From the IMG/VR virus record IMGVR_UViG_3300038856_000006, positions 6,779 through 34,398 of that record: DNA of 27,620 nt; one strand, given 5' to 3'. The notes below the pieces were generated by a model. The model was not told the DNA's origin, did no database searches, and saw nothing but the letters and a program-made list of their open reading frames with translations. This stretch comes from a virus. The translations under genes and the position numbers were made by a program. Shown here in pieces: positions 335 to 21,964 of this stretch (positions are counted from its first letter, which is position 1; the number at the start of each line of letters is the position of its first letter).

Positions 335-955
335 ATGAAATTATTTAACCCCTTTAAAAAGCGACAGCCTAATACGGCTCTTCATCCGGATATTAAGAGG
401 CTTATATCTAAGGTTAAGACCGTTAAGGATAAGGACGGAGCTAAGATCGACCTCTATATGTTTAATACTCCATTCGATATGCCCGCCGGTAGATACTCAG
501 CACTTAACGAGTTTATCGAAGACTATAGAAGAGGCTTAGACCGGGACGAGCTTAAGGTCTATATTAACGAGCTTATCAAGAACCTCGATAATGATACTAT
601 CTCGGTTAAACAGTTATCGGATACGCTAATAGTCCTAAAGTGGATGGCTCAACGCCTAGCTATAGCGGTAGACGTAGACCTGGTACTCCGGATAATAAGC
701 GCCTCGCTCTTTACGGTAGATGAAGACCTAACCGAATACGACTACGACTACGGTAGTTATAAGATAGAGCTTATCGAGAAAAACGGGTTAAGCGCTTTTT
801 TTTTACACGAGCCTTTAAGGAGATACTGGACGCAAACCGATATATCGAAGGACGATTTGGAGATACTTATGGAGCAGAGGAAGATAAAACGTCAGGTATT
901 GAAAGAGCTAACCGAGATGGGAATGTTGCGAGGAGGTATAACGACCGGGCAATAA
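335..955 (+). CDS. Tail assembly chaperone, short (G-like) form
   Basis: This 206-residue product is translated without frameshifting. I chose ATG 335 (MKLFNPFKKRQP) over an in-frame GTG at 314. It lies directly upstream of the tape measure gene, where long-tailed phages encode the chaperone pair (lambda G and GT) that coats the tape measure during tail assembly. The protein is charged and helical with no membrane segment. A run of nine T at 796-804 holds the heptamer T TTT TTA in frame. The -1 frame beyond it is open to 1113 but has no start codon until 1021, so a fused longer product is expected. The family assignment rests on position and the frameshift, since I see no diagnostic motif. 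Confidence 0.7.
   Translation: MKLFNPFKKRQPNTALHPDIKRLISKVKTVKDKDGAKIDLYMFNTPFDMPAGRYSALNEFIEDYRRGLDRDELKVYINELIKNLDNDTISVKQLSDTLIVLKWMAQRLAIAVDVDLVLRIISASLFTVDEDLTEYDYDYGSYKIELIEKNGLSAFFLHEPLRRYWTQTDISKDDLEILMEQRKIKRQVLKELTEMGMLRGGITTGQ
799..805 (+). promoter_or_regulatory. Programmed -1 frameshift slippery site
   Basis: In the frame of the upstream gene the bases read T TTT TTA, the classic X XXY YYZ slippery heptamer, inside a longer run of nine T (796-804). Slipping back one base after the Leu codon 803-805 continues translation at 805 in an open frame that ends at 1111-1113. Transcriptional slippage on the T run could give the same product. No clear downstream stem or pseudoknot was identified by eye. 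Confidence 0.65.
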
Positions 956-1113
956 ATAACCATAAATTTTACTTAACTTTAACTAACTTTAACCCGTCCC
1001 TAATAAGGGAGCTGAAGAAAATGGACGTCATAAGGTTTAACGAATACCTTAAGCTCCTAAAGGCTGAGACTCAGCGACAAAATAGTAAAAAAGCTAACAA
1101 GTGGCGCAAGTAA
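805..1113 (+). CDS. T-like extension of the tail assembly chaperone (reached by -1 frameshift)
   Basis: This frame is open from 763 to a TAA at 1111-1113, but its first start codon is ATG 1021, which would give only 30 residues. Read from the slippery site it adds about 102 residues to the first 157 of the upstream gene, a fusion of about 259. The extension begins TRAFKEILDANRYIEGRFGD and ends in a basic tail rich in Lys, Gln and Asn. Its middle (SLIRELKKMDVIRFNEYLKL) resembles the helical T part of phage tail chaperones, which binds the tape measure protein. It overlaps the tape measure start (GTG 1101) by 13 bases. It also fills an otherwise empty 145-base gap. Confidence 0.65.
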   Translation, partial: TRAFKEILDANRYIEGRFGDTYGAEEDKTSGIERANRDGNVARRYNDRAINNHKFYLTLTNFNPSLIRELKKMDVIRFNEYLKLLKAETQRQNSKKANKWRK

Positions 1114-2855
1114 GGATAGAGTACGTAGTCGACAAATCCCAGGTAGAGGCTGCAGATAAGGCTATAGGTAACTTAGATAAGTCTACGGACGACGCTAAAA
1201 AAGGGAGTGAAGAGCTAGAGGACGTTACTGGGAGTTTAGGAGATCAGTTAAAAAGTACCGCAAACCGGGTTAATATCATGGGCGTAGGCCTCGGAGATAT
1301 GGCTACAGGAGCAGCTAAATCTGCTAAGTCAGTAATAGGACTAACTAAAACATTCAAGCTTTTAAGGACAGCTATTATAGCTACTGGAATAGGGGCTTTG
1401 GTTATAGCTGTTACTTCTCTAGTTACCGCATTTACTAAAACACAAGCAGGAGGAGATAAATTAAATAAGCTATTTGGCCAGATTGGGGCCACTGTAGATG
1501 TATTAATTGGCCGTGTTGCTGATTTCGGTAAAGGATTACTAACTTTTTTGTCTGGTAACCTTGATGGTCTTTCCCAGATGGGAGACGCATTCAAAGGAAT
1601 AGGAGACGAGATAAGCGGAGCAGTAGATGACGCAAGTAAGCTATCAGACACTCTTGTACGTATAAGACAAATCGAAATAGAGGTAACAGAGGCTACAGCC
1701 AGGAGATCAAGACAGATTCAAGACCTTTTAATTATCACGCGAGACTTTACTAAAACTTTTGAAGAGCAACGTGAAGCATTACGTAAAGCAAACAAGTTAG
1801 AACTAGAGAACCAAAAGGACTTCGTAAGACTTGCTAAAGAAAGAGTATTACAAGCAGAGCAAGAGTTAGAGTTTACTCCTGAGACCTTACGTACTGATGA
1901 ACAAAGGCTTGAAGTAGCTCAAGCAAGAGCTAATTTAGAAGGAACGATTGCAGCTAGTACTGCTAAGCAAAGAGAGATATTAAACCGTCAAAATGAATTA
2001 GAGAGCAGGATTCTAGCTACTATAAATAAACAGAAAACTGCTATACAAGCTAAAGAAGATGCTAGGGTATCAGCTAGAGAAGCAGCATTAGAAAGAATAA
2101 GAGAGTTAGAACAAGGATTTGCTGAAAGTCAAGCAGAGCAAGAAGAAGAGAACTTTAAAGAAGAGCAAGACCGATTAGCTAAGAGAAGAGAAGTAATAGT
2201 TGAAAATGAAATTACACAAAGAGAAGAAGACCTAGAGCGGGAAAAGCAATACCAACAAAAAAGAGTAGAGTTAGACAGAGCTACTACACAAGCTATAGGT
2301 ACATCTTTATCGATATTATCCGGAGCGGTTAGTCAGTTCTTTGAAAAGGGGAGCGCTCAAGCTAAGGCATTTGCACTATTCCAGATCGGTATAAGTACCG
2401 CAGAGGCTATAGCTAAAGGTACTGCATCCTCTCAAAGCGTACCATTCCCGGGTAACCTTATCGCTACAGCAACTACTATCGCTACAGTATTAGGGAATAT
2501 AGCGCAAGCTAAGGCGCTAGTATCCGGCGCACAATTCGCGGACGGAGTAATTAATCTAGAGGGAGGGATTAGAGGTAAGGACTCTATACCCGCTTGGCTT
2601 ATGCCCGGCGAAAGCGTAATGACTACCGACGAAACGAGTAAGTTTTTACCGACCCTTACGGCTATCCGTAACGGCTCTATAGACCCTAGCCTGCTTAACG
2701 CGGTCTCTAATAACCCTAAGATAATCGACGCTACTAAGACGGTCAAAGTTCCGGGTGTATCCTTTAGCTGGGATGATAACGGGTTTAGCGCGTATTCGGT
2801 ACGTAAGAGTAAGCGAGTTAAGAAGAAACAAGGACGATATACTTGGAGGGCTTAA
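1101..2855 (+). CDS. Tail tape measure protein
   Basis: 584 residues from GTG 1101; the next in-frame Met is at residue 60, so the GTG start is preferred. It sets tail length and is threaded through the tail tube, probably helping DNA entry. Residues 1-60 are a charged helical start (VRIEYVVDKS). Residues 87-112 form a hydrophobic segment typical of tape measures. About 185-400 is coiled coil rich in Glu, Arg, Gln and Ala. The end has a Gly-rich motif (GGIRGKDSIPAWLMPGESVM) common in this family. At about 0.15 nm per residue the tail would be near 90 nm. The central part (about 1260-2460) has ordinary composition, while both ends carry the TG/CA-poor signature, suggesting replacement of the length-determining core. 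Confidence 0.88.
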   Translation: MAQVRIEYVVDKSQVEAADKAIGNLDKSTDDAKKGSEELEDVTGSLGDQLKSTANRVNIMGVGLGDMATGAAKSAKSVIGLTKTFKLLRTAIIATGIGALVIAVTSLVTAFTKTQAGGDKLNKLFGQIGATVDVLIGRVADFGKGLLTFLSGNLDGLSQMGDAFKGIGDEISGAVDDASKLSDTLVRIRQIEIEVTEATARRSRQIQDLLIITRDFTKTFEEQREALRKANKLELENQKDFVRLAKERVLQAEQELEFTPETLRTDEQRLEVAQARANLEGTIAASTAKQREILNRQNELESRILATINKQKTAIQAKEDARVSAREAALERIRELEQGFAESQAEQEEENFKEEQDRLAKRREVIVENEITQREEDLEREKQYQQKRVELDRATTQAIGTSLSILSGAVSQFFEKGSAQAKAFALFQIGISTAEAIAKGTASSQSVPFPGNLIATATTIATVLGNIAQAKALVSGAQFADGVINLEGGIRGKDSIPAWLMPGESVMTTDETSKFLPTLTAIRNGSIDPSLLNAVSNNPKIIDATKTVKVPGVSFSWDDNGFSAYSVRKSKRVKKKQGRYTWRA

Positions 2856-5105
2856 ATGAACTTTAGATTTATACTAACCTATAACGGGAACGATACGACG
2901 GTAACGGAGCCAAACGGCTTTACCTCGTTTAATAGTTTTATAAAGCGAGACTTTAACGCTCATGGGTTATTCTATCGATATATTAAGGGCGACCTTAGCT
3001 TAGATTTTTACGATGCAGGCAGAGAGGTACTAGAGAGCGCTTACGTAGCTGAAGGGCTAGACGCTCAGGTAACGCTAACGATCGATAGCCGGGAGGATGA
3101 ATTTAGCGCCTGGGTTAACGTCTTTACCGGTACTAGTATTATGAAAACCCGCGATTATACAGCTACTTACTTTGGTTGCGACTTCGAAGAGGTTAACGCG
3201 CTCTCTAAGATTATGAGCCGAAAGGACGAGGAGTACGATACCGATAAGGCGCGTACCTTAGACGGAGTAGCGATGTCGCCACCCTCTTTTACCTCGCTTA
3301 ACTACCAGCCTAAGGCTATTCTAGCTAAGACCGGCACATTATTTGAGATTAACGGAGCTGGATATACTACTAGCGGAGGTAGCGGGATATGGGCGCAGAA
3401 CCTCGGGACGATAGTAGCTAAAGGAGGAGCGAACGAGATAGAATTTACTAACGGAGATAAAGCCGACTATAATACCGGAGCGGTAGATACTACGGACGGA
3501 GTACAAGACGACGTTATACTACTTAACGCTGGCGCTGAGATGGACGTAGACCCGGTTATCGGTGATTACTCTTTTATTATAAACGTACGCGGTAATTGGA
3601 CCCTTGATAGCGCCTCGTCTAGCTCGGGAGTATTAGTACAACTACAGATTAAAGAATATACCGTTGACTCTGATGGCGTAGCTACCCTAGCTAGTACTAC
3701 TACCGTAACCGAGTCGTTACTACAGGAGAGCGTTACGACCGAGGCGACCTTTAACGTAGACGAGGGGAGCTTTACGGTAAGTACTTCTAAGAAGAGATAC
3801 GTATTAGCTCTTAACGTACAACCTAGTAGAGGTAGCGAAACCGCGAGCTTCACTATATCCGGGGAGGCTACTTTAGAGGTCCAATGGGATAGCTTATACC
3901 CGTCTAGTACGATACTCGCTCTACATATTCACGAGACACTAAAGAAAAACCTAGAGTATATCACTAGCGAAACTAACTTTTTATACTCGGAGGTCTTCGG
4001 ACGAACCGAGAACGGATACGCTACCGACGGTATCCTTAGCGATATGCTAGAAACGAACGGCTTTTTAATACGTAGATTCAATAGAGGGATAATTGGTAGC
4101 CTAGAGACAAGGCTAGAGAGCCTTAACGCTATCTTTAGTATCGGTCATGGTATTCAGTACGACGACTATACTAAATCGAGCTATCAATACCGGGTAGAGC
4201 CTACCGAGTACTGGTATAAAGACTCTGAGCTACTAGTAATAGCTGACTACGAAATAGATAGCTACTCCGAGGAGTTCGCTACCGACTTAGAATTTAATCA
4301 AATCCGGATAGGCTATAAAGACTACGCTAAGGATGAGGACTTAAGCGCCTCGCTATATGACTTTAATACAGAGCACGGGTATTCGCTACCCTTAGAGTAC
4401 TTAGTACCTAGAAACGATAGCGGGGAGCCTATAATATTCGGGTTAATATCCGAGTATATCGCTAGCGACTACTTATGGGAGGTTACGCGCCGGGTTCAGT
4501 TCGAGCAGGAGCCTAATAAAACGAGTAACCTAGATGAAGACCTTTTTATAGTTCAGGTTAAGAACGACTACCCGAACTATACGCAACTAACGGTAGCTGA
4601 CGCTATAGAGAACGTTACCGGCCTTGAAAATAGCGCGACCTCGTTTAACTTTTTACTTAACCCTCGCTATAACTTCTATAATCATTCGAGGGTTATAAAT
4701 TCCGTCCTGTTTAGGAAGCCTCTAAGCGATGATATCTATAATACCTACGCTAGGGTTAATAAGGACTTTTCGTTTAACTACCAGGCCGGATATGACGCCG
4801 TACTAGGCGATACGACGAAACGCTTAGCTAGTATGAGCGATGATATGCGTATAGATGAGTACGGGCAGGGGTTAAGGTTATTCGAGCCGGTTTTTATCTC
4901 GTTTAAAACCGGTCTAACGCAAGCGGAGGTTAACAACCTTATAGACGCGCACCAGAACGGAGCGAGCAGTGCTAACTACGGGTATATTACGATAACTAAC
5001 CCGGACGGCGATACGGTAACCGGCTGGCTTATGGAGCTTACCTATAATCCTATCGACAGAATAGCTAGCTTTACGTTAATTAAACGAGCAACTAACTACG
5101 TATAA
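2856..5105 (+). CDS. Distal tail / baseplate hub-like structural protein
   Basis: 749 residues, starting directly after the tape measure stop. Position and size fit the tail tip protein that joins the tube to the fibres. The N-terminal 130 residues (FILTYNGNDTTV, then DLSLDF and repeated short strands) look like a distal-tail beta domain. The middle is Ser/Thr-rich beta structure. The C-terminal half has Tyr-rich mixed segments ending in NPIDRIASFTLIKR, a pattern seen where hub proteins finish on a beta sandwich. No enzyme motif is visible. The gene is strongly TG/CA-poor throughout. The structural role is likely; the exact part (Dit, hub or both) is inferred from gene order. Confidence 0.6.
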   Translation: MNFRFILTYNGNDTTVTEPNGFTSFNSFIKRDFNAHGLFYRYIKGDLSLDFYDAGREVLESAYVAEGLDAQVTLTIDSREDEFSAWVNVFTGTSIMKTRDYTATYFGCDFEEVNALSKIMSRKDEEYDTDKARTLDGVAMSPPSFTSLNYQPKAILAKTGTLFEINGAGYTTSGGSGIWAQNLGTIVAKGGANEIEFTNGDKADYNTGAVDTTDGVQDDVILLNAGAEMDVDPVIGDYSFIINVRGNWTLDSASSSSGVLVQLQIKEYTVDSDGVATLASTTTVTESLLQESVTTEATFNVDEGSFTVSTSKKRYVLALNVQPSRGSETASFTISGEATLEVQWDSLYPSSTILALHIHETLKKNLEYITSETNFLYSEVFGRTENGYATDGILSDMLETNGFLIRRFNRGIIGSLETRLESLNAIFSIGHGIQYDDYTKSSYQYRVEPTEYWYKDSELLVIADYEIDSYSEEFATDLEFNQIRIGYKDYAKDEDLSASLYDFNTEHGYSLPLEYLVPRNDSGEPIIFGLISEYIASDYLWEVTRRVQFEQEPNKTSNLDEDLFIVQVKNDYPNYTQLTVADAIENVTGLENSATSFNFLLNPRYNFYNHSRVINSVLFRKPLSDDIYNTYARVNKDFSFNYQAGYDAVLGDTTKRLASMSDDMRIDEYGQGLRLFEPVFISFKTGLTQAEVNNLIDAHQNGASSANYGYITITNPDGDTVTGWLMELTYNPIDRIASFTLIKRATNYV

Positions 5106-5309
5106 ATGGCTTACAGACGAGTAATAACCGATAAAAACTACGTAAGGTGGAATAAAATTTACGGAGCTTATACGCTCGAAGACTTAAGAGAGGACGGACT
5201 ACCGCCATACGAAGTGCCGGAGGACGACCTAACTAACGCAATAACAACCGAAGATGGAGAGCCTATAACAACTGAAGATGGGTTCTTTTTCGTAACTGAA
5301 GACGCATGA
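5106..5309 (+). CDS. Small tail accessory protein with a TTEDG repeat
   Basis: 67 residues, starting the base after the hub stop and overlapping the next gene by ATGA. Residues 12-35 (YVRWNKIYGAYTLEDLREDG then LPPY) match the start of the protein at 7386, pointing to a shared small module. The C-terminus repeats TTEDGE and TTEDGF and then ends in TEDA, an acidic repeat style often found in short phage tail proteins. No signal peptide or membrane segment. It may be an adaptor between the tail tip and the fibre. Its function is not recognised. Confidence 0.6.
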   Translation: MAYRRVITDKNYVRWNKIYGAYTLEDLREDGLPPYEVPEDDLTNAITTEDGEPITTEDGFFFVTEDA

Positions 5310-7372
5310 AAAAACTACTTTTAATACTACTTACCTTAACGGCGCTTTATAGTAAGGCGCAGATTAAGATATCAGAGCTCGATAGCGTAGGGGCTGGAGC
5401 GCTAACGGACGCTTACTACTTTCCGGTAGTCGACCCTAACGAGGGTAGCCCGTCTGCACGTAATAAACGGCTTAGTATATTCAGACTAGATCAACGCTAC
5501 CCGATTAATAGCGACCTATTTAACGGAGCTAGCCAATACCGGTTCGGGATAGTTAACGCTGCAGGGGACGGTTTTAACTTCCCTAGTACGCTAACTTACG
5601 TATCAGGAGCTCTAACGCAAATAGGGACGGTAGGTATATCTAACCCTACAGCTGGAGCTCTAACCCTTAGCGTAATCGAGAATGACGTAACCGGTACTGA
5701 CATAGAGGTCCAGCGATGGGATACTCAGAACGCGCAGGCTAGCGCGCAACTAGGCTTATATGCCTCTGACCTATCGGTAACTACTCCGGACTGGACCCTA
5801 GAAACTGGAACCGGGCAGGCTATTATTATAAGCGGAGACGGAGGTAACCAGTCTATTAGCGTTAACGATACCGATATAAATATAGCTGGGACGTTAGACT
5901 TACAAAATAACTTAATCGATAACGTAGACCAGATAAACATAGTAGCCGGAGGTAGTCAGGATGTGCAGATTACGGCGCAACAAAACGACATACTCGTACA
6001 AGGAGGGACAGCCAGTACGGACTTTATATTTGAGATTGCAGCGCAAGGTAACGACGGGCTCGACGATGTAGGCTTTGAGGTAGACGCGGTTGGTACTGTA
6101 GGAGGAGGAAACAGAGAGGATTTATGGCTTGGCTGGGATTCAGGTAACAGTCAATTTGAAATCAGATCCGAAGCACAAGGAAGCGGAACGGCCAGGGCTT
6201 TGAGTTTATTTACTTCCGGTAATGCTGGTCAGCTTGACTTGAATACGGATGGGACTACGAGTTTAGGCGGTAACACCGATATAAGCGGAGACTTGACTTT
6301 AATTGGTGGAGGAACTGGTGCAGGTGTAAACTCGAAAAATATTTTTAGGCTAGAGTCAACGGCAGGATTTTTTGATAATGTAAGAATAGAGTCTGAAAAA
6401 AGGGGTGCCCCATCAGACGTATCAGGAAGCCTCCATTTTTACACTGTAGTCGCAGGTCTGGAAGTTGAGGCATTAGAATTACCGGCAAGCGGAGGAGCAA
6501 ATATTACAGGAGACGTAGACATAAGCGGAGATTTGACCGTTGACTCAGGAGCCGGAGGATCGGGTTCTGTTTTTGGAGGCGCAACCGGAGGCGCACAGGG
6601 AGCAGGAACGATCAACGCTGAAGGGCTTTATGTGGATGGGGTGGCGGTTGGTTCGGGAAGCGTTACAAGTTCATCCGGGTCTAGTGTTGATAATAGGTTG
6701 GTTACATTTGATGGAACAAGCGGAGAAATAATACAAGATGGAACTAGCTGGGTTGCAGAAACAAGTAATATAACACATAGCAGTGGAACTAGTTTGCGCG
6801 GAGGGACAACTAATACCTCTGGCTTATTTTTAGCTAGCGGTGCCAACGTAAGAATAGGTGGCGCATCTGCTTCAGCCGGAGGGAATTACTTGCAAATAGG
6901 TAATGGCACAGCTCCAACGGGTGGAGTAAGTAATCAGGTTTGGCTATACGCTGAGGACGTATCATCTAGTTCAGAGCTAAAAGTTAGGGATGAAGCTGGA
7001 AATATTACCGTACTATCTGATATCGAATCAGGAGATACTAGCCCTACACCAAATGGAGATATAAATTGTACCTCAGGAACAGGGTATTTAAAATATACCA
7101 GAGTAGGTGACGAGGTTAGCTGGTCTATTACATGGCCGGTAACTACGGGAGGGCTAGTTGGTAACTCTAATTTTGATATACCGATACCGATATCTTCTAC
7201 TTTTACGGTTGCGCGAGATGTAATAGGCGCAGGCTCCTCTAGTACAACTAATGCGGGGAACGTTTACGCTACCGCGGATACCGGAGGAAACGAGATACAA
7301 ATAAACTTTAGAACGTTAAGCACTAGTGTATCCACTACTATTTACGCTTCGGGGCATTATATTATAAAATAA
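5306..7372 (+). CDS. Tail fibre / spike-like protein with N-terminal signal peptide
   Basis: 688 residues. The first 19 (MKKLLLILLTLTALYSKAQ) form a textbook Sec signal with likely cleavage after Lys-Ala, unusual for a protein meant for a cytoplasmically assembled virion. After it come IKISELDS and a long Gly/Ser/Thr/Asn-rich region with recurring beta motifs, including two DISGDLT units near residues 325 and 405, as in fibre shafts or beta-helix spikes. The C-terminal 110 residues (from GDTSPTPNGD) look like a compact beta tip with Trp and aromatic residues, probably receptor binding. Position between tail-tip genes supports a fibre. Composition switches from TG/CA-poor to ordinary at about 6000-6080 and back at about 7130, so the middle seems imported. 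An exported fibre homologue or surface adhesin is the alternative. Confidence 0.65.
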   Translation: MKKLLLILLTLTALYSKAQIKISELDSVGAGALTDAYYFPVVDPNEGSPSARNKRLSIFRLDQRYPINSDLFNGASQYRFGIVNAAGDGFNFPSTLTYVSGALTQIGTVGISNPTAGALTLSVIENDVTGTDIEVQRWDTQNAQASAQLGLYASDLSVTTPDWTLETGTGQAIIISGDGGNQSISVNDTDINIAGTLDLQNNLIDNVDQINIVAGGSQDVQITAQQNDILVQGGTASTDFIFEIAAQGNDGLDDVGFEVDAVGTVGGGNREDLWLGWDSGNSQFEIRSEAQGSGTARALSLFTSGNAGQLDLNTDGTTSLGGNTDISGDLTLIGGGTGAGVNSKNIFRLESTAGFFDNVRIESEKRGAPSDVSGSLHFYTVVAGLEVEALELPASGGANITGDVDISGDLTVDSGAGGSGSVFGGATGGAQGAGTINAEGLYVDGVAVGSGSVTSSSGSSVDNRLVTFDGTSGEIIQDGTSWVAETSNITHSSGTSLRGGTTNTSGLFLASGANVRIGGASASAGGNYLQIGNGTAPTGGVSNQVWLYAEDVSSSSELKVRDEAGNITVLSDIESGDTSPTPNGDINCTSGTGYLKYTRVGDEVSWSITWPVTTGGLVGNSNFDIPIPISSTFTVARDVIGAGSSSTTNAGNVYATADTGGNEIQINFRTLSTSVSTTIYASGHYIIK

Positions 7373-7385
7373 CTAACTTTACGCT

Positions 7386-7928
7386 ATGGCAACGGTATTA
7401 GATATTAACGAGAATAACCTAGTTAAATGGCTTAAAGTAGAGGGCTCGCTTACTTTAGCGGATTTAAGAGCTAGCGGTATTCCGGAGTATACCGATAATA
7501 TAGTAGTAGACTTCGGTAGCTTTAGCTTTAGTGAGGACTTTTCGAATAACGATAATAACTGGGATTTAGACGGAGGTCAATTACAGATATCCGGAGGAGT
7601 ACTAGAGAATAATGGTACGCTAGGAGGCGGGATAGTTACCGCTACATTACCGGATATATACCCAGTATACGGCACATATACCCTATCCGCACGTAGCCTT
7701 AATATGACCTCTGTCTCCGGGCTCCCTACTATGACCGTAGAGGTAGTAGATAAATTTGGTACCGTAGTAGCTAGTATAAGCTTTACCGACGGAGAGACTA
7801 ACGACCCAAAGGAATCGACCGGTATTTTAATAAAAGGAGGTAAGCATATAATCCGGGTAGTATTCGACCCTACTTTAGGCTCGATATTTAACTACGAGCT
7901 AACGAGTTTAAGCCTAATAAAGCAATGA
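7386..7928 (+). CDS. Tail accessory protein with beta-sandwich, possibly carbohydrate-binding
   Basis: 180 residues. The first 35 residues (LVKWLKVEGSLTLADLRASG then IPEY) repeat the module at the start of the 67-residue protein at 5106. Residues 45-180 are strand-rich: FSEDFSNNDNNWDLDGGQL followed by GG turns and alternating hydrophobic residues, similar in look to jelly-roll carbohydrate-binding modules that begin with an Asp-Phe-Ser-like strand. It overlaps the next gene by ATGA. A fibre-attached lectin or fibre tip cap would fit. The gene is TG/CA-poor like the tail genes around it. The carbohydrate-binding role is a guess from pattern only. Confidence 0.55.
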   Translation: MATVLDINENNLVKWLKVEGSLTLADLRASGIPEYTDNIVVDFGSFSFSEDFSNNDNNWDLDGGQLQISGGVLENNGTLGGGIVTATLPDIYPVYGTYTLSARSLNMTSVSGLPTMTVEVVDKFGTVVASISFTDGETNDPKESTGILIKGGKHIIRVVFDPTLGSIFNYELTSLSLIKQ

Positions 7929-8674
7929 GTAATTTTGATCAATTCAACGATGTAGAAAACCCTTCGCTAGTATGGTATCCAGGTGACCCATTCTCGTTTT
8001 ATGCTAATATTACTGAGCTAGAGGACGACGCAAACTTTGATAACTGGCATTTAGACCTTCTCGATAATAACTTTAACGTAATTATATCGGACGTAGGTAT
8101 CTTAACGAAGGACGTTATAACCGGCTCTAGCTATCGATTCTATAGTCAATTCGAAGTACCTACAGGACTTACTCCGGGAGTCTGCTACCGGTTAGTTATC
8201 GTAGACGAGACTTATAACCTCGTTAAGTACGTCTCGAATAAATTTCAGTATTCGAGCGAGGAGGAGTATACGGTACAAATAAGATATCGTAATAGCCGGA
8301 ATATATTTAACTTTAACTACGAAGGGCTAAGCTCCTTTTATAACGAGTTTAGGGTAAGGCTTTTAATTAATAAGCCTAGCTCAGCTATTAACGCAGAAGG
8401 GTACGAGATAAGCGACGGGAGCTTTAAGCCGGTTCGATATACTAAAGGGCGTAACGACGATTTTACTACTCTATGGTACGATTACGACGACCACGAAGGA
8501 TTTGAAGCTGCAGCGTTACATAGCGCATTTGAGTGCGCGATACGAGGGCAATGGGTAGCGTATACGTTAGGAGAGAACGCCTACGAGACCGAGTGGCTAG
8601 GTAACTATCCGCTATCGGACGGAATAGTTACGATGCAAAGAAAAGATAGCTTCTCTAATAACAGAACGCTATAA
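7925..8674 (+). CDS. Tail-associated protein of unknown function
   Basis: 249 residues, coupled to the gene before it by ATGA and last in the tail-tip group. The sequence is rich in aromatic and acidic residues with alternating beta patterns: DPFSFYANITEL near residue 20, LTPGVCYRLVIVD near 95, then YTVQIRYRNSRNIFNFNY near 115. It looks like two or three small beta sandwiches. No catalytic motif, signal peptide or membrane segment is visible. The next gene (portal) follows after 24 bases containing a palindrome (CCTTTATTAAAGG). I infer a virion role from context only. Confidence 0.55.
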   Translation: MSNFDQFNDVENPSLVWYPGDPFSFYANITELEDDANFDNWHLDLLDNNFNVIISDVGILTKDVITGSSYRFYSQFEVPTGLTPGVCYRLVIVDETYNLVKYVSNKFQYSSEEEYTVQIRYRNSRNIFNFNYEGLSSFYNEFRVRLLINKPSSAINAEGYEISDGSFKPVRYTKGRNDDFTTLWYDYDDHEGFEAAALHSAFECAIRGQWVAYTLGENAYETEWLGNYPLSDGIVTMQRKDSFSNNRTL

Positions 8675-8698: not shown

Positions 8699-10519
8699 AT
8701 GATTAATTTTATTAAAGCGGAGGGCGTAGAGTATACGAAATACCTAACGTCTATAAGTAGCGGTACTACTCCTAAGAGGCACGACTACTACAAGGAGACT
8801 AAGGAAGCAGCCCAGACTATGGGCGTACACGTCGAAGGGAAGACTCCTAAGAAGCTCCTAGAGCAGAAGAGACCTAACGAGCCCGAAGAAGTGCGTAAGT
8901 ATCGCCTAGAGACTTGGAAGCCCGTTACTAAGTCCCTTAGCGATAAGGTTATTAATACCCTAAACCGGGTATTTAACGAACGTTACTTTAAGCTAAAGTT
9001 TCCGGAGAAACCCGGGTTAATCCCTACCGGCGAAGACCTCCCGGAGTTCCTTTTAGAGGATTACGGAATATATCAGTCAGTTTGGAAGTTTATAAAAGAG
9101 ACGCTACTTAAAATAACGCTATCCGACCCTAACGCGCTATGCTTTATACGACCTGTTAACTACGATACGGATGATAAATTTTATAAGCCTCTACCGATTA
9201 TCTACCGGTCTGAGCGCCTAGTAGACTTTAAAGACGGTGAGTACTATACCTTATTCTGGCCGGGCGATAATAAGAAGCCCTCTAAAATAATGATCATTAC
9301 TACCGAGTCTATCCGGGTTTATAAAAAGAAAGGTAATACTCTTAACCTAGTATTCGAGGATATCCACGAGCTAGGTATAACCCCAGCTTTTAGGCTAGGC
9401 GGACAGATAGAGGGTGAAGACTACCCATACTACTTTACCAGCTTTATCTCCGGAGCTAGCTCTCACTGGGATAAGGTAGTAACGATGGTATCCGACGCGG
9501 ACGGCTCTATAGTAAATCACCTGTTTCCTGAGAAATACGAATGGCAAGAGACCTGCCCTAACTGCGACGGCTCCGGTAAGGTAGAAGTTAACTTAGGTAT
9601 CCGATCTGAAAAGCAGGACGTACAGCAGTGCCGTACCTGCGACGGTGCCGGATGGGTAACGAATAGAAGCCCTTACGGTATTATGACGATTAAGCGCGAC
9701 GCTATTAACCCGGAGCTCCCTAGCCCTATACCGCCTGCGGGATATATTACGAAAGATATAGCGCCTCTAGTTGAGCTTAAAAAGCAGATCGACGACGAGA
9801 TATTTAAAGGCTATAGCGCCATTAATATGGAGATTCTCCATAAGGTAGGAGAGAATCAAAGCGGGAAAGCTAAAACTATCGACCGGCAGGACTTAGATTC
9901 GTTCTTAAAGCGTATTAGCGACCATGTTTTTGACTATCAGCTAAATCATATAATCGAGATTACCGCATACTGGCGCTTAAAATTTCCGCTTAACGATAAA
10001 GGACTAGAGAAGTATTTAGCAGAGGTATCTATTAGTAAGCCGGTAGAGTTTAACGTAATGACTATAGATACGATTATAGAGGAGATTAATCAGGCCTCTA
10101 GTTCTAACGTCTCAACGAACTATTATAGGCATTTAGAGCAGGAGCTAATAAATATCAAGTTCTCTAATAACGAGTATGAGCGTAAGGTAAACCTCGCTAA
10201 GCTGAAGTTAAAGCCGTACCCGGGTAAGAGCCAGGACGCGCTACTTAGCGCTAACGCTATTAATGCGGTAACCGAAATAGACCTTATACGTAACGAGAAT
10301 ATTGATCTGCTCGTAGATATCGCTATAGCGGAGGATGAGAGCTTTATAGATAAATCCTTTATGGAGCAACTCGTTATTATCAACGAAATGATCGAGGAGA
10401 AATACCTTAAGGGAGACGATCCGAACGTTATACCCCCTGAGCCCGCGCCGGCACCGCCTCCAGTAATCGAAGAGGAGGAGGACGAATTAGAGGACGAATT
10501 AGAGCTAGAAAATGAATGA
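8699..10519 (+). CDS. Portal protein with DnaJ-like zinc motif
   Basis: 606 residues. The portal forms the ring at one capsid vertex through which DNA is packaged and to which the tail joins. Support comes from size, the N-terminal pattern (KPVTKSLSDKVINTLNRVF near residue 75), the central DPNALCFIRP strand, long helices in the last third, and the MuF-like gene directly after it. An insert holds CPNCDGSG (Cys 286, 289) and CRTCDGAG (Cys 311, 314), a CxxCxGxG pair 21 residues apart as in DnaJ zinc domains. The C-terminus is a Pro-rich stretch and an acidic Glu/Asp/Leu tail. It overlaps the next gene by 8 bases. Confidence 0.82.
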   Translation: MINFIKAEGVEYTKYLTSISSGTTPKRHDYYKETKEAAQTMGVHVEGKTPKKLLEQKRPNEPEEVRKYRLETWKPVTKSLSDKVINTLNRVFNERYFKLKFPEKPGLIPTGEDLPEFLLEDYGIYQSVWKFIKETLLKITLSDPNALCFIRPVNYDTDDKFYKPLPIIYRSERLVDFKDGEYYTLFWPGDNKKPSKIMIITTESIRVYKKKGNTLNLVFEDIHELGITPAFRLGGQIEGEDYPYYFTSFISGASSHWDKVVTMVSDADGSIVNHLFPEKYEWQETCPNCDGSGKVEVNLGIRSEKQDVQQCRTCDGAGWVTNRSPYGIMTIKRDAINPELPSPIPPAGYITKDIAPLVELKKQIDDEIFKGYSAINMEILHKVGENQSGKAKTIDRQDLDSFLKRISDHVFDYQLNHIIEITAYWRLKFPLNDKGLEKYLAEVSISKPVEFNVMTIDTIIEEINQASSSNVSTNYYRHLEQELINIKFSNNEYERKVNLAKLKLKPYPGKSQDALLSANAINAVTEIDLIRNENIDLLVDIAIAEDESFIDKSFMEQLVIINEMIEEKYLKGDDPNVIPPEPAPAPPPVIEEEEDELEDELELENE

Positions 10520-11399
10520 AGAAGGCGTAAGCCGTGATATTATAGGGATAACCGAGAAGGCGGTAGAGGGCTTCGCCTCAGGTGCAGCTATTACCGAGCG
10601 TGAGATAATGTCTAGTATTAATCGATTAATAGCCCAGCTAGACGTAGGCCCACAAGGGAACGTTAAGCCGAATAGCGCTAACCTTCGACTTCTACGCGGT
10701 ATTAATAAGAAAATAGAGAAGCTAGTTATTACCCCTAAGTATCTTAAGCGCCTCGATAAGTACTTAGGGAACTTCGCTAAGGTAAAAGGTATTACCGACG
10801 GGCTATTTAACGAAGTAGCGAAGGATTTTAAAGCTAATAAGGCCGTCTTTAAGGATACCCTAGCGGTTAACCTAGAGCTTACATCTAGGAGCTTAAAGCA
10901 GTCCGGAATAAGCGCGAACGTAGTAAAACCGATTACGGACTTAGTTCAGAAGGGGATTACTTCTGGTATGTCGGTCCAGCAGATCGAGAATGATTTAAGG
11001 CTACAAATACTAGGTGATCAGAAGAGGTTAGGAGGCTTACAGAGGTACGTAAAGCAGATTAGCCGGGACGCGCTTAATCAGTACTCTAGGAACTACAATA
11101 AAGCTATTAGCGATGACCTTTCGTTAGAGTGGTATTACTACTCCGGTAGCGTTATAAAAGACACTAGGGAGTATTGCGAGGATCGCGCCGGTAGGTATTT
11201 CCATCGTGCAGAGGTAGAAGATGTACCCTCTCCCTGGGCTGGTATGATACCCGGGACAAACTCGGGGAGTATTTTTATTAACGCTGGCGGGTATAATTGT
11301 AGACATATATGGATGCCGGTATTAATCGACGTCGTACCGAGGGATGTAATCGACCGTAATATTGCGATGGGTAACTACCGGGTAGAAGTAGAAGCGTAA
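10512..11399 (+). CDS. MuF-like head morphogenesis protein
   Basis: 295 residues. Members of this family sit next to portal genes and are minor head proteins involved in assembly, sometimes injected with the DNA. The N-terminal 150 residues are helical and Lys-rich. The C-terminal domain carries the MuF pattern: ISRDALNQYSRNYNKA (a helix with conserved Asp/Asn), SGSVIKDTREYCEDRAGRYF, then NAGGYNCRHIWMPV, matching the family layout of a Cys-containing R-x-x-C region followed by a final NCRH/NCRC. It starts inside the end of the portal gene. No toxin domain is fused. Confidence 0.8.
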   Translation: MNEEGVSRDIIGITEKAVEGFASGAAITEREIMSSINRLIAQLDVGPQGNVKPNSANLRLLRGINKKIEKLVITPKYLKRLDKYLGNFAKVKGITDGLFNEVAKDFKANKAVFKDTLAVNLELTSRSLKQSGISANVVKPITDLVQKGITSGMSVQQIENDLRLQILGDQKRLGGLQRYVKQISRDALNQYSRNYNKAISDDLSLEWYYYSGSVIKDTREYCEDRAGRYFHRAEVEDVPSPWAGMIPGTNSGSIFINAGGYNCRHIWMPVLIDVVPRDVIDRNIAMGNYRVEVEA

Positions 11400-11432
11400 A
11401 ATTTATTATCTTTAACTAAAAATTATACGAAC

Positions 11433-11804
11433 ATGGAAGTAAGTAACGAACTAAGGGAGCTCTATAAGGAGACTTTCGGGAAGTACCCAAGCTCTAAGAT
11501 GAAGCTAGAGACGGTTATGGAGAAGTTAACCGCAGAGGGAGTAATAAAGCCCGAAGAGAAAGAGCCTGAAGTCAAGCCTGAGCCTAAGAAAGAGGAGCCT
11601 AAGAAAGAGGCATCTAAAGAAAGCCTCCCGGAGAGTCAAGGGAGAGGCGCTAGTAAGCTATTTTTAGTTTACTTTAGAGGACAGGCCAGATACTGGACCC
11701 TCGCTAGCATTAACTCTATGAAGGCGTACGCGGATGAAATTAAATTTCCTGAGGATACGTCTTTTGCTGATGCAGCGAATTTTAATAAATGTAAAACCTG
11801 TTAA
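11433..11804 (+). CDS. Small charged protein of the head operon
   Basis: 123 residues. The first 35 residues look like a small helical module (ELYKETFGKYPSSKMKLETV). Residues 36-66 are a low-complexity Glu/Lys/Pro linker. The C-terminal 50 residues (LFLVYFRGQARYWTLASI and the following helix) form a compact domain ending in CKTC. It lies between MuF and scaffold genes, with a 33-base AT-rich gap before it. The composition is mostly TG/CA-poor. I do not recognise the family. A scaffold- or portal-associated protein is plausible. Confidence 0.5.
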   Translation: MEVSNELRELYKETFGKYPSSKMKLETVMEKLTAEGVIKPEEKEPEVKPEPKKEEPKKEASKESLPESQGRGASKLFLVYFRGQARYWTLASINSMKAYADEIKFPEDTSFADAANFNKCKTC

Positions 11805-11814
11805 TTAAGCGATA

Positions 11815-12663
11815 ATGCCAAAACTAATAGACGTACTAAAAACGGTTGCTGGAAAAGTAAACAGTAACGAACTAAGCGCAGCGCTTAGCGCTAGCGAACC
11901 TTGGAATGTAGAAATTGATCAAAGCGAGTTTGAGAAGACCGCTAACCAGATTAAGGGTATGCTTACCCTCGATAGCGCCGTAAATAATCCGGACGTAGCT
12001 AAGCAATTAAAAGATAAGTTAAAGACCGAGTGGGAGAGTGAAAGAGGAGGAGAGCTAAAGAGCTCTATTTACGGAACGGTAGAGGAGAAACTAGGTAAGC
12101 TATCCGAGAAGCTAGGCGTAGACCTATCCGGAAAGAGACTAGACGAGCAGATTCAGACTATAGGTGAGGCTAAATTCAAGTCGACCGGCTCTAACGAGGA
12201 GCTTAAGAAACTGCAAGAGCAATTAAGAGGCGCTAAAGAGCGCGAGACTACCCTAGAGAAGGAGTACAATAAGAAATTTACAGATTTTAAAATAGATACA
12301 TCGCTAAGGAATAAGCTAAATAGCTTACCTTTGGCACAACCTTATCAGGAGGCTATGGTAAAAGATGGTATCTTTGATAAGGTAATTAGCACTGTTAAAA
12401 ACAAGGCTAACCTAAAACTCTCTGAAAATGGAGACTTCGAACTATTCCAAAAGGATAACCCGGAGATGGAACTATACGGAGAGAATAACAAGAAACTCGG
12501 TATTGACGATATTATTAATCCGTTAGTACAACCCTTCATTAAGACAAAGGCTGACGACACCGAAAGCAAAAGAAAAGCGCCTACAGAAATCCCAGCGGGA
12601 GAGGGCGCAAATAGCGCAAGCGATATCGTAAGAGGAGCACGCGCTCAGGGAGTAAAGTATTAA
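11815..12663 (+). CDS. Capsid scaffolding protein
   Basis: 282 residues directly before the major capsid gene, the usual place for a scaffold. The protein is almost entirely helical and charged, with a long coiled coil (about residues 60-175: KQLKDKLKTEWESERGGELK, then ELKKLQEQLRGAKERETTLE) and a later helix pair. The C-terminal tail is flexible and Arg/Gly/Ala-rich. It would guide coat assembly into the procapsid and then leave. No protease motif is visible in it, and no head protease gene lies in the window. Confidence 0.75.
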   Translation: MPKLIDVLKTVAGKVNSNELSAALSASEPWNVEIDQSEFEKTANQIKGMLTLDSAVNNPDVAKQLKDKLKTEWESERGGELKSSIYGTVEEKLGKLSEKLGVDLSGKRLDEQIQTIGEAKFKSTGSNEELKKLQEQLRGAKERETTLEKEYNKKFTDFKIDTSLRNKLNSLPLAQPYQEAMVKDGIFDKVISTVKNKANLKLSENGDFELFQKDNPEMELYGENNKKLGIDDIINPLVQPFIKTKADDTESKRKAPTEIPAGEGANSASDIVRGARAQGVKY

Positions 12664-12692
12664 CTCCGACCCCAATTTATAATTATTAAATT

Positions 12693-13781
12693 ATGTCTTT
12701 TATTGTTGATTGGACGGAGAGATTACAACCCGTCCGTACCTCTTTGGAGCAGAATACTATTATCAACGACCCGGCGAACTATTCAAAGCTAACCGGCACG
12801 TTGGATTTTCTTTTGAACCCACAACTGAACCCTCGAACTATCGACGTGATTCAGAACCAAAACGCTGATGCTTCTCAGTATCGTAGCGTAGAGGTTAGAT
12901 ATCAACCCCACTGGGGCGACGACGACCTGGTAACTACTGACGGTAGCCTTACTTGCGACTCTAACAACCAGAAGCGGGATTATATCGCTAACTACGACGT
13001 CAACCTATTTGCAGCTTATAAGTTTACCCTCGACGAGGACTACTTACGACAGAATACGGAGGACGGCGATAGCCAGCAGAACCGACTAGAGCGAGGCTTT
13101 AGAAAGGCAATGCGTATTTGTCGTGAGTCTATGTCAGCTCAGCTTATGGCTAAGATGGCAGCGAATATCGGAAGTAACCCGGCTGCAGAAGCAGGAGCGG
13201 GAGCTTATACGACTCTAGAGTTGATTAACTCTGCCGGTGGCGCGGACGTTGATAACTTCGACGTTATGAAGAACCACCTAGAGGATAATTACATGGCTGG
13301 CCCGCTAGCCGTCCTCGGTTTAGGTAACGCTCGTAAGTACTTTAACCGTCTCGCGGTAGGTAACCTTAATACTAACGCCGGCGTAGATATCCGGGAAGTA
13401 GCAAACCAATTCGGCGCGCTCTTCTATAAGGACCATTCTACGTTAGCTAGCTTAGGAGGCGCTAACAAAGTACTTGCAGTAGCTCCAGGGCTTACGCAGT
13501 TCTTTGGTTATAATCTCTTTAAGGGCGTATTCGTTAAGGAGACTCCGGACAGCCTGATTAAAGGCACTATGCCGGACGCTATCTACCCATTTGACTGGGA
13601 TTATAAGATAGAGTACGATAAAGGTTGTACTAACGGAAACGGCCTACAGGGCGCGTGGGTAGTAACCGTCTTTAAGTATTTCGATCTATTTACGGTGCCT
13701 GAAAGAGCGTTTGGCGATACCTACGGGGAGCTTAACGACTTTAACGGAATCGTTGGTTATAATATTACTCAAGGAGCGTAA
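12693..13781 (+). CDS. Major capsid protein
   Basis: 362 residues, the expected size for an HK97-fold coat protein, placed after the scaffold. Features seen: an N-terminal arm (TERLQPVRTSLEQNTIINDP), a beta-rich stretch (YRSVEVRYQPHWGDDDLVTT), a long spine-like helix near residues 140-160 (RLERGFRKAMRICRESMSAQ), Ala/Gly-rich segments, and a C-terminal strand region (GAWVVTVFKYFDLFTVPERA). Codon choice is less extreme than in the neighbours, using Gln, ttg and atg contexts more freely, as might suit the most highly expressed gene. Its stop overlaps the next start as TAATG. Confidence 0.82.
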   Translation: MSFIVDWTERLQPVRTSLEQNTIINDPANYSKLTGTLDFLLNPQLNPRTIDVIQNQNADASQYRSVEVRYQPHWGDDDLVTTDGSLTCDSNNQKRDYIANYDVNLFAAYKFTLDEDYLRQNTEDGDSQQNRLERGFRKAMRICRESMSAQLMAKMAANIGSNPAAEAGAGAYTTLELINSAGGADVDNFDVMKNHLEDNYMAGPLAVLGLGNARKYFNRLAVGNLNTNAGVDIREVANQFGALFYKDHSTLASLGGANKVLAVAPGLTQFFGYNLFKGVFVKETPDSLIKGTMPDAIYPFDWDYKIEYDKGCTNGNGLQGAWVVTVFKYFDLFTVPERAFGDTYGELNDFNGIVGYNITQGA

Positions 13782-14311
13782 TGGGAGATTGCAGAAAAGT
13801 AATCGACGTATATAATGAACTTAACTGCACATTCGAGAGCGGGCGCGTAAATGCGCTCGCTTTTGTAACCGAAGAAAAAGCGGTGGTAGCCGACGCTACC
13901 CCTAGCTTATGGAGTGACCCGTCATTTTGGACAGACGAGACATACTCTGGCGATATCGTAATACACGATAAAGTTAGCGGAGGTTATAGCGGAGCGGATG
14001 CTACAGCTGCAGGTAAGGGCGACCAGCAAGAGCGTAATATCGGTAAGACTCATACCCTGACTACTAGGGTGGAGAGTGTTAAAGGTAACAACGCATACTG
14101 GGATGATTTAAATATCTCTACTGGATACCGCGTAGTCTGGGTAGGTGATTACTACTCTATTCTATTCGTAAGTACGGCTAACGCTAGGATTAGCGCTAAC
14201 CTTATCCAGGAGGACGACTTAGGAACGATTATGGAGTGGGGAGTTGTAAGCGTTTGGTCTGATATTAGACTACCTCGGACTTACGATGTACCAGCCGGTA
14301 TTTTTAACTAA
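13781..14311 (+). CDS. Virion structural protein, tail-tube or head-decoration candidate
   Basis: 176 residues, coupled to the major capsid gene by TAATG and followed by an intrinsic terminator, so it is probably made in high amount. The sequence is beta-rich: GRVNALAFVTEEKAVV, a central THTLTTRVESVKG, STGYRVVWVGDYYSILF, and an ending EWGVVSVWSDIRLPRTYD. The layout (small, two-sheet, acidic loop before the last strands) resembles small Bacteroidota phage structural proteins of the tail-tube type. A decoration protein is an equal alternative. No motif decides between them. Confidence 0.5.
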   Translation: MGDCRKVIDVYNELNCTFESGRVNALAFVTEEKAVVADATPSLWSDPSFWTDETYSGDIVIHDKVSGGYSGADATAAGKGDQQERNIGKTHTLTTRVESVKGNNAYWDDLNISTGYRVVWVGDYYSILFVSTANARISANLIQEDDLGTIMEWGVVSVWSDIRLPRTYDVPAGIFN

Positions 14312-14333
14312 GATTTTTTAGGATTAGAAAATT

Positions 14334-14366
14334 AAAGCGGGTAGTTAATAGCTATCCGCTTTTTTT
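14334..14366 (+). terminator. Intrinsic terminator of the head operon
   Basis: AAAGCGGGTAG (14334-14344) pairs with CTATCCGCTTT (14352-14362) with one G-T wobble around a 7-base loop, and a run of seven T (14360-14366) follows. It sits just past the stop at 14311 and closes the capsid-gene transcript. Confidence 0.85.
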
Positions 14367-14406
14367 ATACTACCTTAGTCTTCTTCATAGTTATTTGGTT
14401 TTAATC

Positions 14407-14437
14407 GGGGACGGGGTTGGTATCTCGTCCCTTTTTT
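14407..14437 (+). terminator. Second intrinsic terminator in tandem
   Basis: GGGACGGG (14408-14415) pairs with CTCGTCCC (14424-14431), one wobble, with an 8-base loop, then six T (14432-14437). It lies 40 bases after the first terminator and only 13 bases before the next start codon. The spacer 14368-14406 could hold a promoter or leader, but I see no clear consensus. Its closeness to ATG 14450 suggests it may act as an attenuator for the glycosyltransferase cluster. Confidence 0.7.
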
Positions 14438-14449
14438 AAACGACCTAAA

Positions 14450-15055
14450 ATGGATTTATACGACCGGATTACTTCGCGTAAGGTTAAGTACGACCTATCT
14501 ATATTAGTACTAAGCCTACCTGGGAGATTAGAGAAAGCCACTAAACTAATTAAAGAACTATCTAGACAAGCCGTTAAAGGGAGTGTTCAAATCGTTTACT
14601 TAGGCGATAATAAGAGCCTCTCGGTAGGAGAGAAGCGTAACCTAGCGCTTACCGTATCTAGCGGGACGTACGTAGCCTTTATAGACGACGACGACTGGGT
14701 TACTCCGGATTATATCGAAAGTCTCTTAGAAGCTATTAAAACAGCTCCCGAGGTTATCACGTTTCGAGTAATGAAATACCGCAACGGGGTAGAGGATAAG
14801 GAACAGCGCTTTTATCTTAACGTAGGCGTGCCTTACCTCTCTCCGGATAAGAGCCATTATAAAATGTGCCCTAATCATTTATGCGCGTGGCGCCGGGATT
14901 TAATAAAAGAGCGATATCCGGATAAGAACCTAGCGGAGGACTTAAACTGGTCAGAGGCGCAGAGGAGGCACTATAAGACGATCTACGAAATAGATAAAGT
15001 ACTTTACTTTTACTATTACGATACCGAGCTAAGCGAGACGCACCGAAGGCCATGA
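14450..15055 (+). CDS. Family 2 glycosyltransferase
   Basis: 201 residues from ATG 14450. A longer TTG start at 14417 falls within the terminator hairpin and is rejected. The fold is GT-A like: strand LSILVLSLPGR, a helix with KELSRQAVKG, then VGEKRNLAL and YVAFIDDDDWVTPDYI, where the Asp run is the DxD-type metal and nucleotide-sugar site. It probably adds a sugar to a virion protein, a lipid or a host glycan; the acceptor is not visible. No membrane anchor. It ends ATGA-coupled to the next gene. Strongly TG/CA-poor: by hand count, Asp, Asn and Tyr codons end in T before A and in C before G with no exception in this gene. Confidence 0.82.
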   Translation: MDLYDRITSRKVKYDLSILVLSLPGRLEKATKLIKELSRQAVKGSVQIVYLGDNKSLSVGEKRNLALTVSSGTYVAFIDDDDWVTPDYIESLLEAIKTAPEVITFRVMKYRNGVEDKEQRFYLNVGVPYLSPDKSHYKMCPNHLCAWRRDLIKERYPDKNLAEDLNWSEAQRRHYKTIYEIDKVLYFYYYDTELSETHRRP

Positions 15056-15720
15056 ATTTATTTATAAACTATTTTAACCACCCGAACGGGCTACGAGCTA
15101 AAGAAATAGACGAGGCGCTTAGGCTTAACGTAGCTAACGAGCATATAAAACGGATTCTAATAATAGGGGACGAGCCTAAGATTAAGAGCGATAAAATAGA
15201 TATGGTAGAGGGAGAGCGCCCTACCTATCAGGACTTTTTTGATTTAACGGAATACTACCCGGACGATATTAATATTATCTCTAACTCCGATATAAGTTTT
15301 GACGATACGATACACCTAGCGGAGAATCTTAACCCGAGGGAGGCTTACGCGCTTACCCGGCACGAGTTTTCGGAGGGTAAAATACTAGACTTTACCGCCT
15401 ATAATAATTGTCCGCCTCATTTCTCGCAAGACACGTGGATATTTAAGGGAGCCGTTAAGGTTAAGAACGTATCCGAGGTAATAGCTATGAATAATATTAC
15501 TCGCGGATTCGAGACTATACCCTTTCATTTAGGCGTACCGGGGTGCGATAACGTAATAGCGCACTATATTAAGCTATTTTACGGGCTTAAGAATCCTTAC
15601 GACTATATTATAGCTAGACATCATCACGGGAGCAGAAAAAGGCCGGAGTACCCGTACCGGGTTACCGGGGCGAAGTCGCACTGGGGAGTTATAACTAAAG
15701 TACCAATAACAAGACTATGA
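15052..15720 (+). CDS. Glycosyltransferase-like protein
   Basis: 222 residues. Visible features: an N-terminal NYFNHPNGLRAKEIDEALRL, a Rossmann-like strand IKRILIIGDEP, then INIISNSDISFDDT, in which NSDISFDD takes the place of a DxD-type site. Later motifs are YALTRHEF, SQDTWIFKG and FHLGVPGCDNVIAHYI, typical of short sugar-transferase-like proteins found next to capsular or phage glycan genes. The basic C-terminus has HHHGSRKR. It is ATGA-coupled on both sides. Donor and acceptor are unknown. The family was recognised from motif order only. Confidence 0.65.
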   Translation: MNLFINYFNHPNGLRAKEIDEALRLNVANEHIKRILIIGDEPKIKSDKIDMVEGERPTYQDFFDLTEYYPDDINIISNSDISFDDTIHLAENLNPREAYALTRHEFSEGKILDFTAYNNCPPHFSQDTWIFKGAVKVKNVSEVIAMNNITRGFETIPFHLGVPGCDNVIAHYIKLFYGLKNPYDYIIARHHHGSRKRPEYPYRVTGAKSHWGVITKVPITRL

Positions 15721-15938
15721 AAAAATATTCAGAACAATGCGCAACGTGTAAGTATTTCGGTCAAGGGCTTTTAAGCTCTTTCTGTGAGCACGAGAAAGCT
15801 ACTGAAGATCAAAAAAACTATCGTTATTATATTGATTCTTGCGACCGGCACGAGACCGGCACGAGCGAGAGCCGTAAAGATTATATGGCTAATCAAGAGG
15901 AGTGGGATAAAAAAGCGAGGGAGGCGCTAGCTATATGA
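15717..15938 (+). CDS. Small Cys/His-rich protein
   Basis: 73 residues with Cys at CATC (residues 8 and 11), FCEHE (23-27) and SCDRHE (41-46), six or more potential metal ligands in the first 46 residues. This looks like a small zinc-binding knuckle followed by a charged helix. It sits between glycosyltransferase genes with ATGA overlaps on both sides, so it is made with them. A partner or chaperone of the sugar enzymes is possible; nothing in the sequence shows it. Not recognised as a named family. Confidence 0.55.
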   Translation: MKKYSEQCATCKYFGQGLLSSFCEHEKATEDQKNYRYYIDSCDRHETGTSESRKDYMANQEEWDKKAREALAI

Positions 15939-16873: not shown

Positions 16874-17606
16874 TACGCTAGCGTATATCCCTCTACACTA
16901 TGGTAAGGAATACCTAGAGGCGGTTATTAAAAGTATTCACCCGTTCGTTGATAGGGTAGTAGCTTTTTATAGTTCCGAGCCTACGTACGGGCATAAGGGC
17001 AACCTAGCTAACCCGGATAGTAAAGAGGAGCTCGAACGGATAGTAAATAGCTTTACGCGTACCGAGTTTATCGATATAACCAATAGGAGGATTACGAGAG
17101 AGAATATACATAGGAATCTAGCGCATACCTACGCTAGTAGCGCTATTCAAAACCCGAAGGACTTAAATTTTGACCTCGTAATGGCCGTAGACGCTGACGA
17201 GGTATGGAATCCGGAGCGGGTAGAGGAGGCTATACACGCTGCATACTTTTCAAACAGCCATTTTATACACGTAGCCGGTTCGCAGTGGTATCACTTCTGG
17301 AAGGGATTAAAGGAGGTTAACAGGGACGGGTTCTATCCTATGCGGTTTACGAACCTTAATAACTACGTCGGTAACGCGGATATAATCGAGGCTGGAGAGA
17401 TATACCACATGGGCTACGCTATCGACCCGGAGGTTATGAAGTATAAGCTATCCTGTCACGGGCATAAAAGCGAGATATCTAACGGATGGTATAACGATAA
17501 ATGGCTTAACTACGAGCGCGGAGTAACGACGCACTTACACCCGGCTAGCCGTGATATTTGGATAGAAACAGAAGACTTTAACGGGAAACTCCCTGACTAC
17601 TTATGA
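16848..17606 (+). CDS. GT2-like glycosyltransferase
   Basis: 252 residues from ATG 16848, inside the end of the previous gene. A short N-terminal TLAYIPLHYGKEYLEAVIKS is followed by VDRVVAFYSSEP and, near residue 110, LVMAVDADEVWNPERVEEA, where DADE serves as the DxD site. The later WYHFWKGLKEV, aromatic stretches and a His-rich KLSCHGHKSE section are typical of short glycosyltransferases that act on glycan chains. It is ATGA-coupled to the methyltransferase. Probably extends the same glycan as its neighbours. No transmembrane helix. Confidence 0.72.
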   Translation: MRVGKENINTLAYIPLHYGKEYLEAVIKSIHPFVDRVVAFYSSEPTYGHKGNLANPDSKEELERIVNSFTRTEFIDITNRRITRENIHRNLAHTYASSAIQNPKDLNFDLVMAVDADEVWNPERVEEAIHAAYFSNSHFIHVAGSQWYHFWKGLKEVNRDGFYPMRFTNLNNYVGNADIIEAGEIYHMGYAIDPEVMKYKLSCHGHKSEISNGWYNDKWLNYERGVTTHLHPASRDIWIETEDFNGKLPDYL

Positions 17607-21958: not shown

Positions 21959-21964
21959 ATAATT

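Follow-up and report, generated by a model that had tools for sequence, protein, structure and literature searches.

The G/GT frameshift is a textbook example of ribosomal frameshifting in phages, and conserved frameshifts of tail chaperones are encountered in other dsDNA phages as well. In the gpG/gpGT system of phage lambda, two overlapping frames lie directly before the tape measure gene, a -1 shift takes place on the ribosome at the heptamer G GGA AAG in the 3' part of G, and T, which has no start of its own, ends where the tape measure begins. The G half of the lambda GT protein has been shown to bind the tape measure, and T to recruit tail-tube subunits. Slippage during transcription is known from Thermus thermophilus dnaX (A9), from type III secretion genes, Shigella mxiE among them, and from IS element transposases. 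Like the locus described below, these genes carry a homopolymer of nine whose length is conserved among homologues and yield two products per gene. Runs of 9 A or T bring about efficient transcriptional slippage in vivo (PMC5009743). Single-base insertions predominate and rise exponentially with the length of the run, the RNA:DNA hybrid being nine bases long (PMC5574713). Baranov and co-workers considered a 9A/9T run of conserved length among homologues as the mark of purposeful transcriptional slippage (PMC1088944). In the open PMC literature, we found no earlier report of transcriptional slippage in phage tail chaperones.

The present locus belongs to a window of 27,620 nucleotides, which is the whole stretch of DNA that was analysed and corresponds to positions 6779-34398 of a viral record with 34,398 bases. 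It is likely a G/GT-type gene whose -1 shift would be produced mainly by slippage of RNA polymerase on a run of nine Ts. As in lambda, two overlapping ORFs (335-1113) stand directly upstream of a tape measure gene (1101-2855), the presumed shift falls in the 3' part of G, T is devoid of its own start and T ends at the start of the tape measure. The features are the following, in coordinates of the window:

335-955, + strand: G, predicted tail assembly chaperone, unslipped product of 206 aa from ATG 335
796-804, + strand: slip site of nine consecutive Ts (a length shared by 45 of 57 homologues, with each of the three codon phases represented)
796-802, + strand: in-frame ribosomal slippery heptamer T TTT TTT, read directly from the sequence
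799-805, + strand: in-frame ribosomal slippery heptamer T TTT TTA, read directly from the sequence
805-955, + strand: overlap in which both G (frame 0) and T (frame -1) are coding, from the substitution pattern
805-1113, + strand: T, -1 frame extension of 102 aa joined to the first 157 aa of G
956-1113, + strand: T-only stretch, occupying what looks like an empty interval from G to the tape measure, with a stop that overlaps the tape-measure start
1101-2855, + strand: tail tape measure protein of 584 aa, started by GTG, with PHROG tape-measure matches

The -1 frame is open over 763-1113 (351 nt including the stop codon), and the sole ATG, GTG or TTG of the T frame is the ATG at 1021, codon 72 past the T run. 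The original prediction had described this open frame, the lack of any start before 1021 and a 259-residue fusion, and its coordinates and length proved correct (157 aa of G and 102 aa of T). The in-frame T TTT TTA on which it relied is present at 799-805, accompanied by a second heptamer, T TTT TTT, and the G-frame codons across the run read GCT TTT TTT TTA. The predicted position right before the tape measure was confirmed by matches of the tape-measure ORF to PHROG tail length tape measure profiles (E 4.7e-15 and 5.5e-8), and the T frame stops 13 nt within the start of that ORF.

Protein-pattern scans with G, T, the tape measure and the downstream protein returned no relatives among viral contigs, and a G search of 50,697 phage records gave no match. 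A search with the terminase (TerL) recovered three close relatives, each record carrying a G homologue of 39-46% identity before its tape measure. In all three, the G frame is kept past the slip, nine Ts occur with unchanged codon phase and the -1 frame stays open as far as the tape measure. Further relatives were obtained from a terminase-profile scan, a degenerate DNA pattern and profile searches of whole genomes; the DNA pattern stops upstream of the T run, so that the run was not selected for. After dropping pairs above 70% identity, the set comprised 57 non-redundant G homologues from prophage regions and from viral contigs, which are partly fragments. In most of the untruncated relatives, a long ORF begins near the T stop. 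The G family is patchy, since a phylum-wide draw of 396 genomes yielded it in the centre genome only. Two prophage-like copies of G reside in Flammeovirgaceae assemblies (L045 and L050) and a distant copy with a T6C site in a Robiginitomaculum assembly (L064), and the window phage is a phage of uncultured bacteria. Three loci (L220, L200 and L186) carry a tandem pair of G-like genes in which a slip site followed by T is found in one copy only, the other copy having either no slip site or a heptamer without a T ORF.

The second ORF of this family is in the -1 frame, is conserved and has no conserved start of its own. Following the slip, the -1 ORF extends over a median of 98 codons (quartiles 92-104) in the 57 homologues, compared with a median of 4 for the +1 frame, and G is itself conserved beyond the slip site throughout this set. 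In each of 18 loci, leave-one-out profiles of T ranked the -1 ORF above every other six-frame ORF, with E values ranging from 1e-23 to 0.01. A profile restricted to the part after the G stop, the region where the overlap cannot mislead this ranking, placed it first in 14 of 18. The three codon positions of G, compared in four pairs, show substitution rates of 0.27/0.17/0.51 before the run, with a peak at the G third position, and of 0.21/0.24/0.34 in the overlap, where codon periodicity is flattened and third-position substitutions of G drop from 0.51 to 0.34 (p 1e-5). After the G stop they become 0.25/0.47/0.37, with the peak of 0.47 at the T-frame third position in the T-only stretch 956-1113 (p 1.5e-4). 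Such a succession is characteristic of DNA that codes once, then twice, then once again, as predicted. A codon-usage scan by itself is ambiguous in the overlap of G and T, as expected from dual coding. The T-only stretch and its T-frame peak account for the gap at 956-1100 in the way the original prediction had proposed, and T does escape gene callers, as it had also anticipated: a single-frame caller loses T in every member seen. Conservation of the -1 frame in relatives, on which that prediction had staked itself, was borne out decisively. Judging from these sequences, we regard the T frame as real and the finding as larger than first stated.

Some sequencing platforms are error-prone at nine-base homopolymers, and the real gene might then be a single ORF of 259 aa broken by a sequencing or assembly error. 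However, over 40 further loci show the T9 run with both open frames, the G frame beyond the slip is itself conserved and the dual-coding substitution pattern speaks against an error. Because such an error would make the G frame past the run meaningless, we consider it ruled out for the family, the probability left to it being negligible. It is also very improbable that T is a separate small gene started within the -1 frame without any fusion, for instance at ATG 1021, which would give a 30-aa protein. A start of T is not conserved, and at least seven T9 members are without any ATG, GTG or TTG in the entire T frame, so that T would have to be made as a fusion there. The T frame is moreover conserved from the T run onwards, far upstream of 1021. 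Chance, sequencing error and a separate T gene are thus excluded or very unlikely.

Among the 57 homologues, the junction carries T9 in 45, T10 in one, T8 in none, T7C in two, T6C in four and GGGAAAG in two; the remaining three, L095 and the second G copies of L220 and L186, are without such a site and T ORF. One of the two GGGAAAG cases, L200, is a second G copy lacking a T ORF. A slippery site is therefore conserved at the junction, as T9 or T10 in 46 of 57 and as an in-phase heptamer with a T ORF in seven more. Every shorter slip site associated with a T ORF is an exact in-phase heptamer (T6C, T7C or GGGAAAG), and the T TTT TTT at 796-802 of the window is the one that aligns with the T6C and T7C heptamers of relatives. 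The T9 runs lie mostly in codon phase 2 (39 cases), with four in phase 0 and two in phase 1, and T is in the -1 frame at all T9 members but L185. The run thus keeps its length and not its codon phase. Only four other runs of nine A or T occur in the 363 kb of the same loci. From this background, the probability that a run of at least seven is exactly nine long equals 0.022, which gives p ~1e-70 for 45 T9 among 48 when rows are treated as independent. When 14 members are aligned as DNA, the T9 run forms the only invariant block. In all 15 first-aligned T9/T10 members, the codon before the run ends in T even though it specifies different amino acids (A, S, G, D), and wherever the third codon is Leu it is written TTR (TTA or TTG). 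Phase variation by DNA indels was rejected, as the run does not vary in length among family members but stays at nine.

We infer polymerase slippage at this T9 run and the resulting G:GT ratio as follows. Without a slip, the gene would produce G of 206 aa, and a fraction of expression would enter the -1 frame at the run and give GT of 259 aa. RNA polymerase progressing on the nine Ts would copy one base again, leaving a fraction of mRNAs with ten Us, and ordinary translation of these as GCU UUU UUU UUU ACA would lead into the T frame. Selection for exactly nine Ts irrespective of phase agrees with RNA polymerase, in which the RNA:DNA hybrid spans about nine bases, and a single-base insertion, the commonest event, leads to the -1 frame. 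A conserved A/T run of about nine and independence from codon phase, both expected of programmed transcriptional slippage, are observed here, with the exception of L185. Against this reading, some bacteria may suppress slippage on 9A/9T (PMC1088944), T9 contains a U_UUU_UUU heptamer in every phase, and seven relatives have ordinary ribosomal heptamers at the same place, which means that the architecture does not require polymerase slippage. As the run holds a heptamer whatever its phase, polymerase and ribosome may both contribute to slippage at T9.

Two members depart from this scheme. L185 (genome G629), with T9 at 1192, is the sole T9 member whose T-like frame is +1, its G-like C terminus being in -1. 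Its sequence may differ, or be in error, by one base; alternatively, the gene would require one additional U to make G and two to make GT. The other member, L095, has a G homologue at 2810-3050 without T9, a nine-A run a few codons upstream instead, and G-like and T-like segments in unexpected frames.

Programmed -1 ribosomal frameshifting alone, at T TTT TTT or T TTT TTA and similar to lambda G/GT, would make T9 just a convenient slippery stretch. The window run does contain in-frame heptamers of the X_XXY_YYZ kind, and the seven relatives carry at the same place an exact in-phase T TTT TTC, T TTT TTT followed by C, or G GGA AAG. These motifs, U_UUU_UUC, U_UUU_UUU and G_GGA_AAG, rank among the efficient frameshift heptamers in E. 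coli (PMC4066793). Such a heptamer, however, requires six or seven Ts in one phase, whereas nine are kept in three phases and eight never occur, and the extra flanking Ts are superfluous for it. In E. coli, U_UUU_UUU and U_UUU_UUA are moreover far less shift-prone than A_AAA_AAG (PMC5009743). Unlike several of the heptamer sites, the T9 sites also lack a stimulatory structure. We therefore hold the ribosome as sole agent to be unlikely, and favour polymerase slippage as the main device. The T TTT TTA heptamer put forward by the original prediction is probably not the main slip device; its aside that the run could slip during transcription is better supported, because exactly nine Ts are kept whatever the codon phase or the following base.

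A stimulatory structure downstream of the slip site is common in -1 ribosomal frameshifting and not obligatory in bacteria. No such RNA structure was detected at the T9 sites (mean z about 0 for the T9 set, 0.35 for the window), and the seven heptamer sites tend to have one, with a mean z of -1.2 to -1.6. Over three windows of calculation, the Mann-Whitney p values of heptamer versus T9 sites were 0.003, 0.012 and 0.076, a contrast that is suggestive only, since two of the heptamer members, L211 and L213, are sisters.

The T9 and heptamer kinds of site require at least four changes on a tree built from 51 G proteins; this tree has SH-aLRT support only and its deep branches are weak. It points to transcriptional slippage having given way to ribosomal frameshifting repeatedly. 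Lambda shifts on the ribosome at G GGA AAG, and the family described here uses exactly nine Ts and probably RNA polymerase, with the lambda heptamer present in one relative, L169. Contrary to dnaX, mxiE and the IS transposases, a family-wide T9 is here swapped for ribosomal heptamers in several lineages, and the slippage is predicted from sequence. It is rather likely that these loci constitute an undescribed and deeply diverged chaperone family which makes GT by transcriptional slippage at T9, and whose lineages switched several times to or from ribosomal frameshifting at the same codon, with selection acting on the protein ratio and not on the machine. If true, a polymerase-made G/GT with natural switches to heptamers would set the selected trait, a fixed chaperone ratio, apart from its mechanism, and what tail assembly selects would be the ratio between both proteins, whichever machine sets it. 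Such a separation is directly testable by transcript sequencing.

The locus is best read as a G/GT-type chaperone pair preceding the tape measure, and the chaperone role is predicted from position and architecture, on which it rests because no known tail assembly chaperone matches in sequence or fold. This part of the original prediction stands as the best reading, its counterpart among known chaperones not having been found. By analogy with lambda, the G half of GT would hold the tape measure and the T tail would recruit tail-tube subunits. The G family has no match in Pfam, PHROGs or NCBIfam. An AlphaFold model of G built from 18 sequences (pLDDT 75) consists of a beta hairpin followed by helices, and with a pLDDT of only 75 it gave no significant Foldseek match in viral and PDB libraries; no sequence or fold similarity to lambda gpG/gpGT was detected either. 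A match to phrog_201 (E 0.0019), obtained for one member only, was judged to be due to chance. The lack of a known relative would agree with two real frames whose product is other than a tail chaperone. We consider this improbable, because a location directly before the tape measure with ends that overlap, an architecture of the G/GT kind and slip sites that turn over are all traits of tail chaperones, which are known to diverge extremely. The G and T proteins would thus represent a new family working like G/GT, its homology to known chaperones being unproved. This family, absent from all the profile libraries searched, is now exposed together with its overlap of two proteins sharing some 30-100 codons: by contrast with lambda, G continues here over that distance after the slip, all of it dual coding.

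Leeuwenhoekiella phage vB_LaeS_Arctus_1 and Rhodobacteraceae phage LS06-2018-MD05 resemble the window in carrying a 209-217 aa protein directly before the tape measure, overlapping its start, and in the homology of the downstream virion protein. They differ in that their pre-tape-measure gene is a single unshifted ORF, and profile comparison of its products with G and T revealed no detectable similarity. The module order is also distinct: in the window, the tape measure and tail-tip genes (1101-8674) precede the portal and capsid genes (8699-22495), the reverse of Arctus_1. The portal protein (8699-10519) includes an inserted CxxCxGxG zinc-finger-like segment at residues 286-325 (DnaJ central domain, E 5.5e-5). 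Between the capsid and tail-completion genes, glycosyltransferase-like, methyltransferase and DUF5672 genes identified with Pfam (14417-18738) suggest glycosylation of the virion. A second T9 run, at 23983-23991, is intergenic, lies before 24225 outside the listed genes and is followed by a further T-rich stretch.
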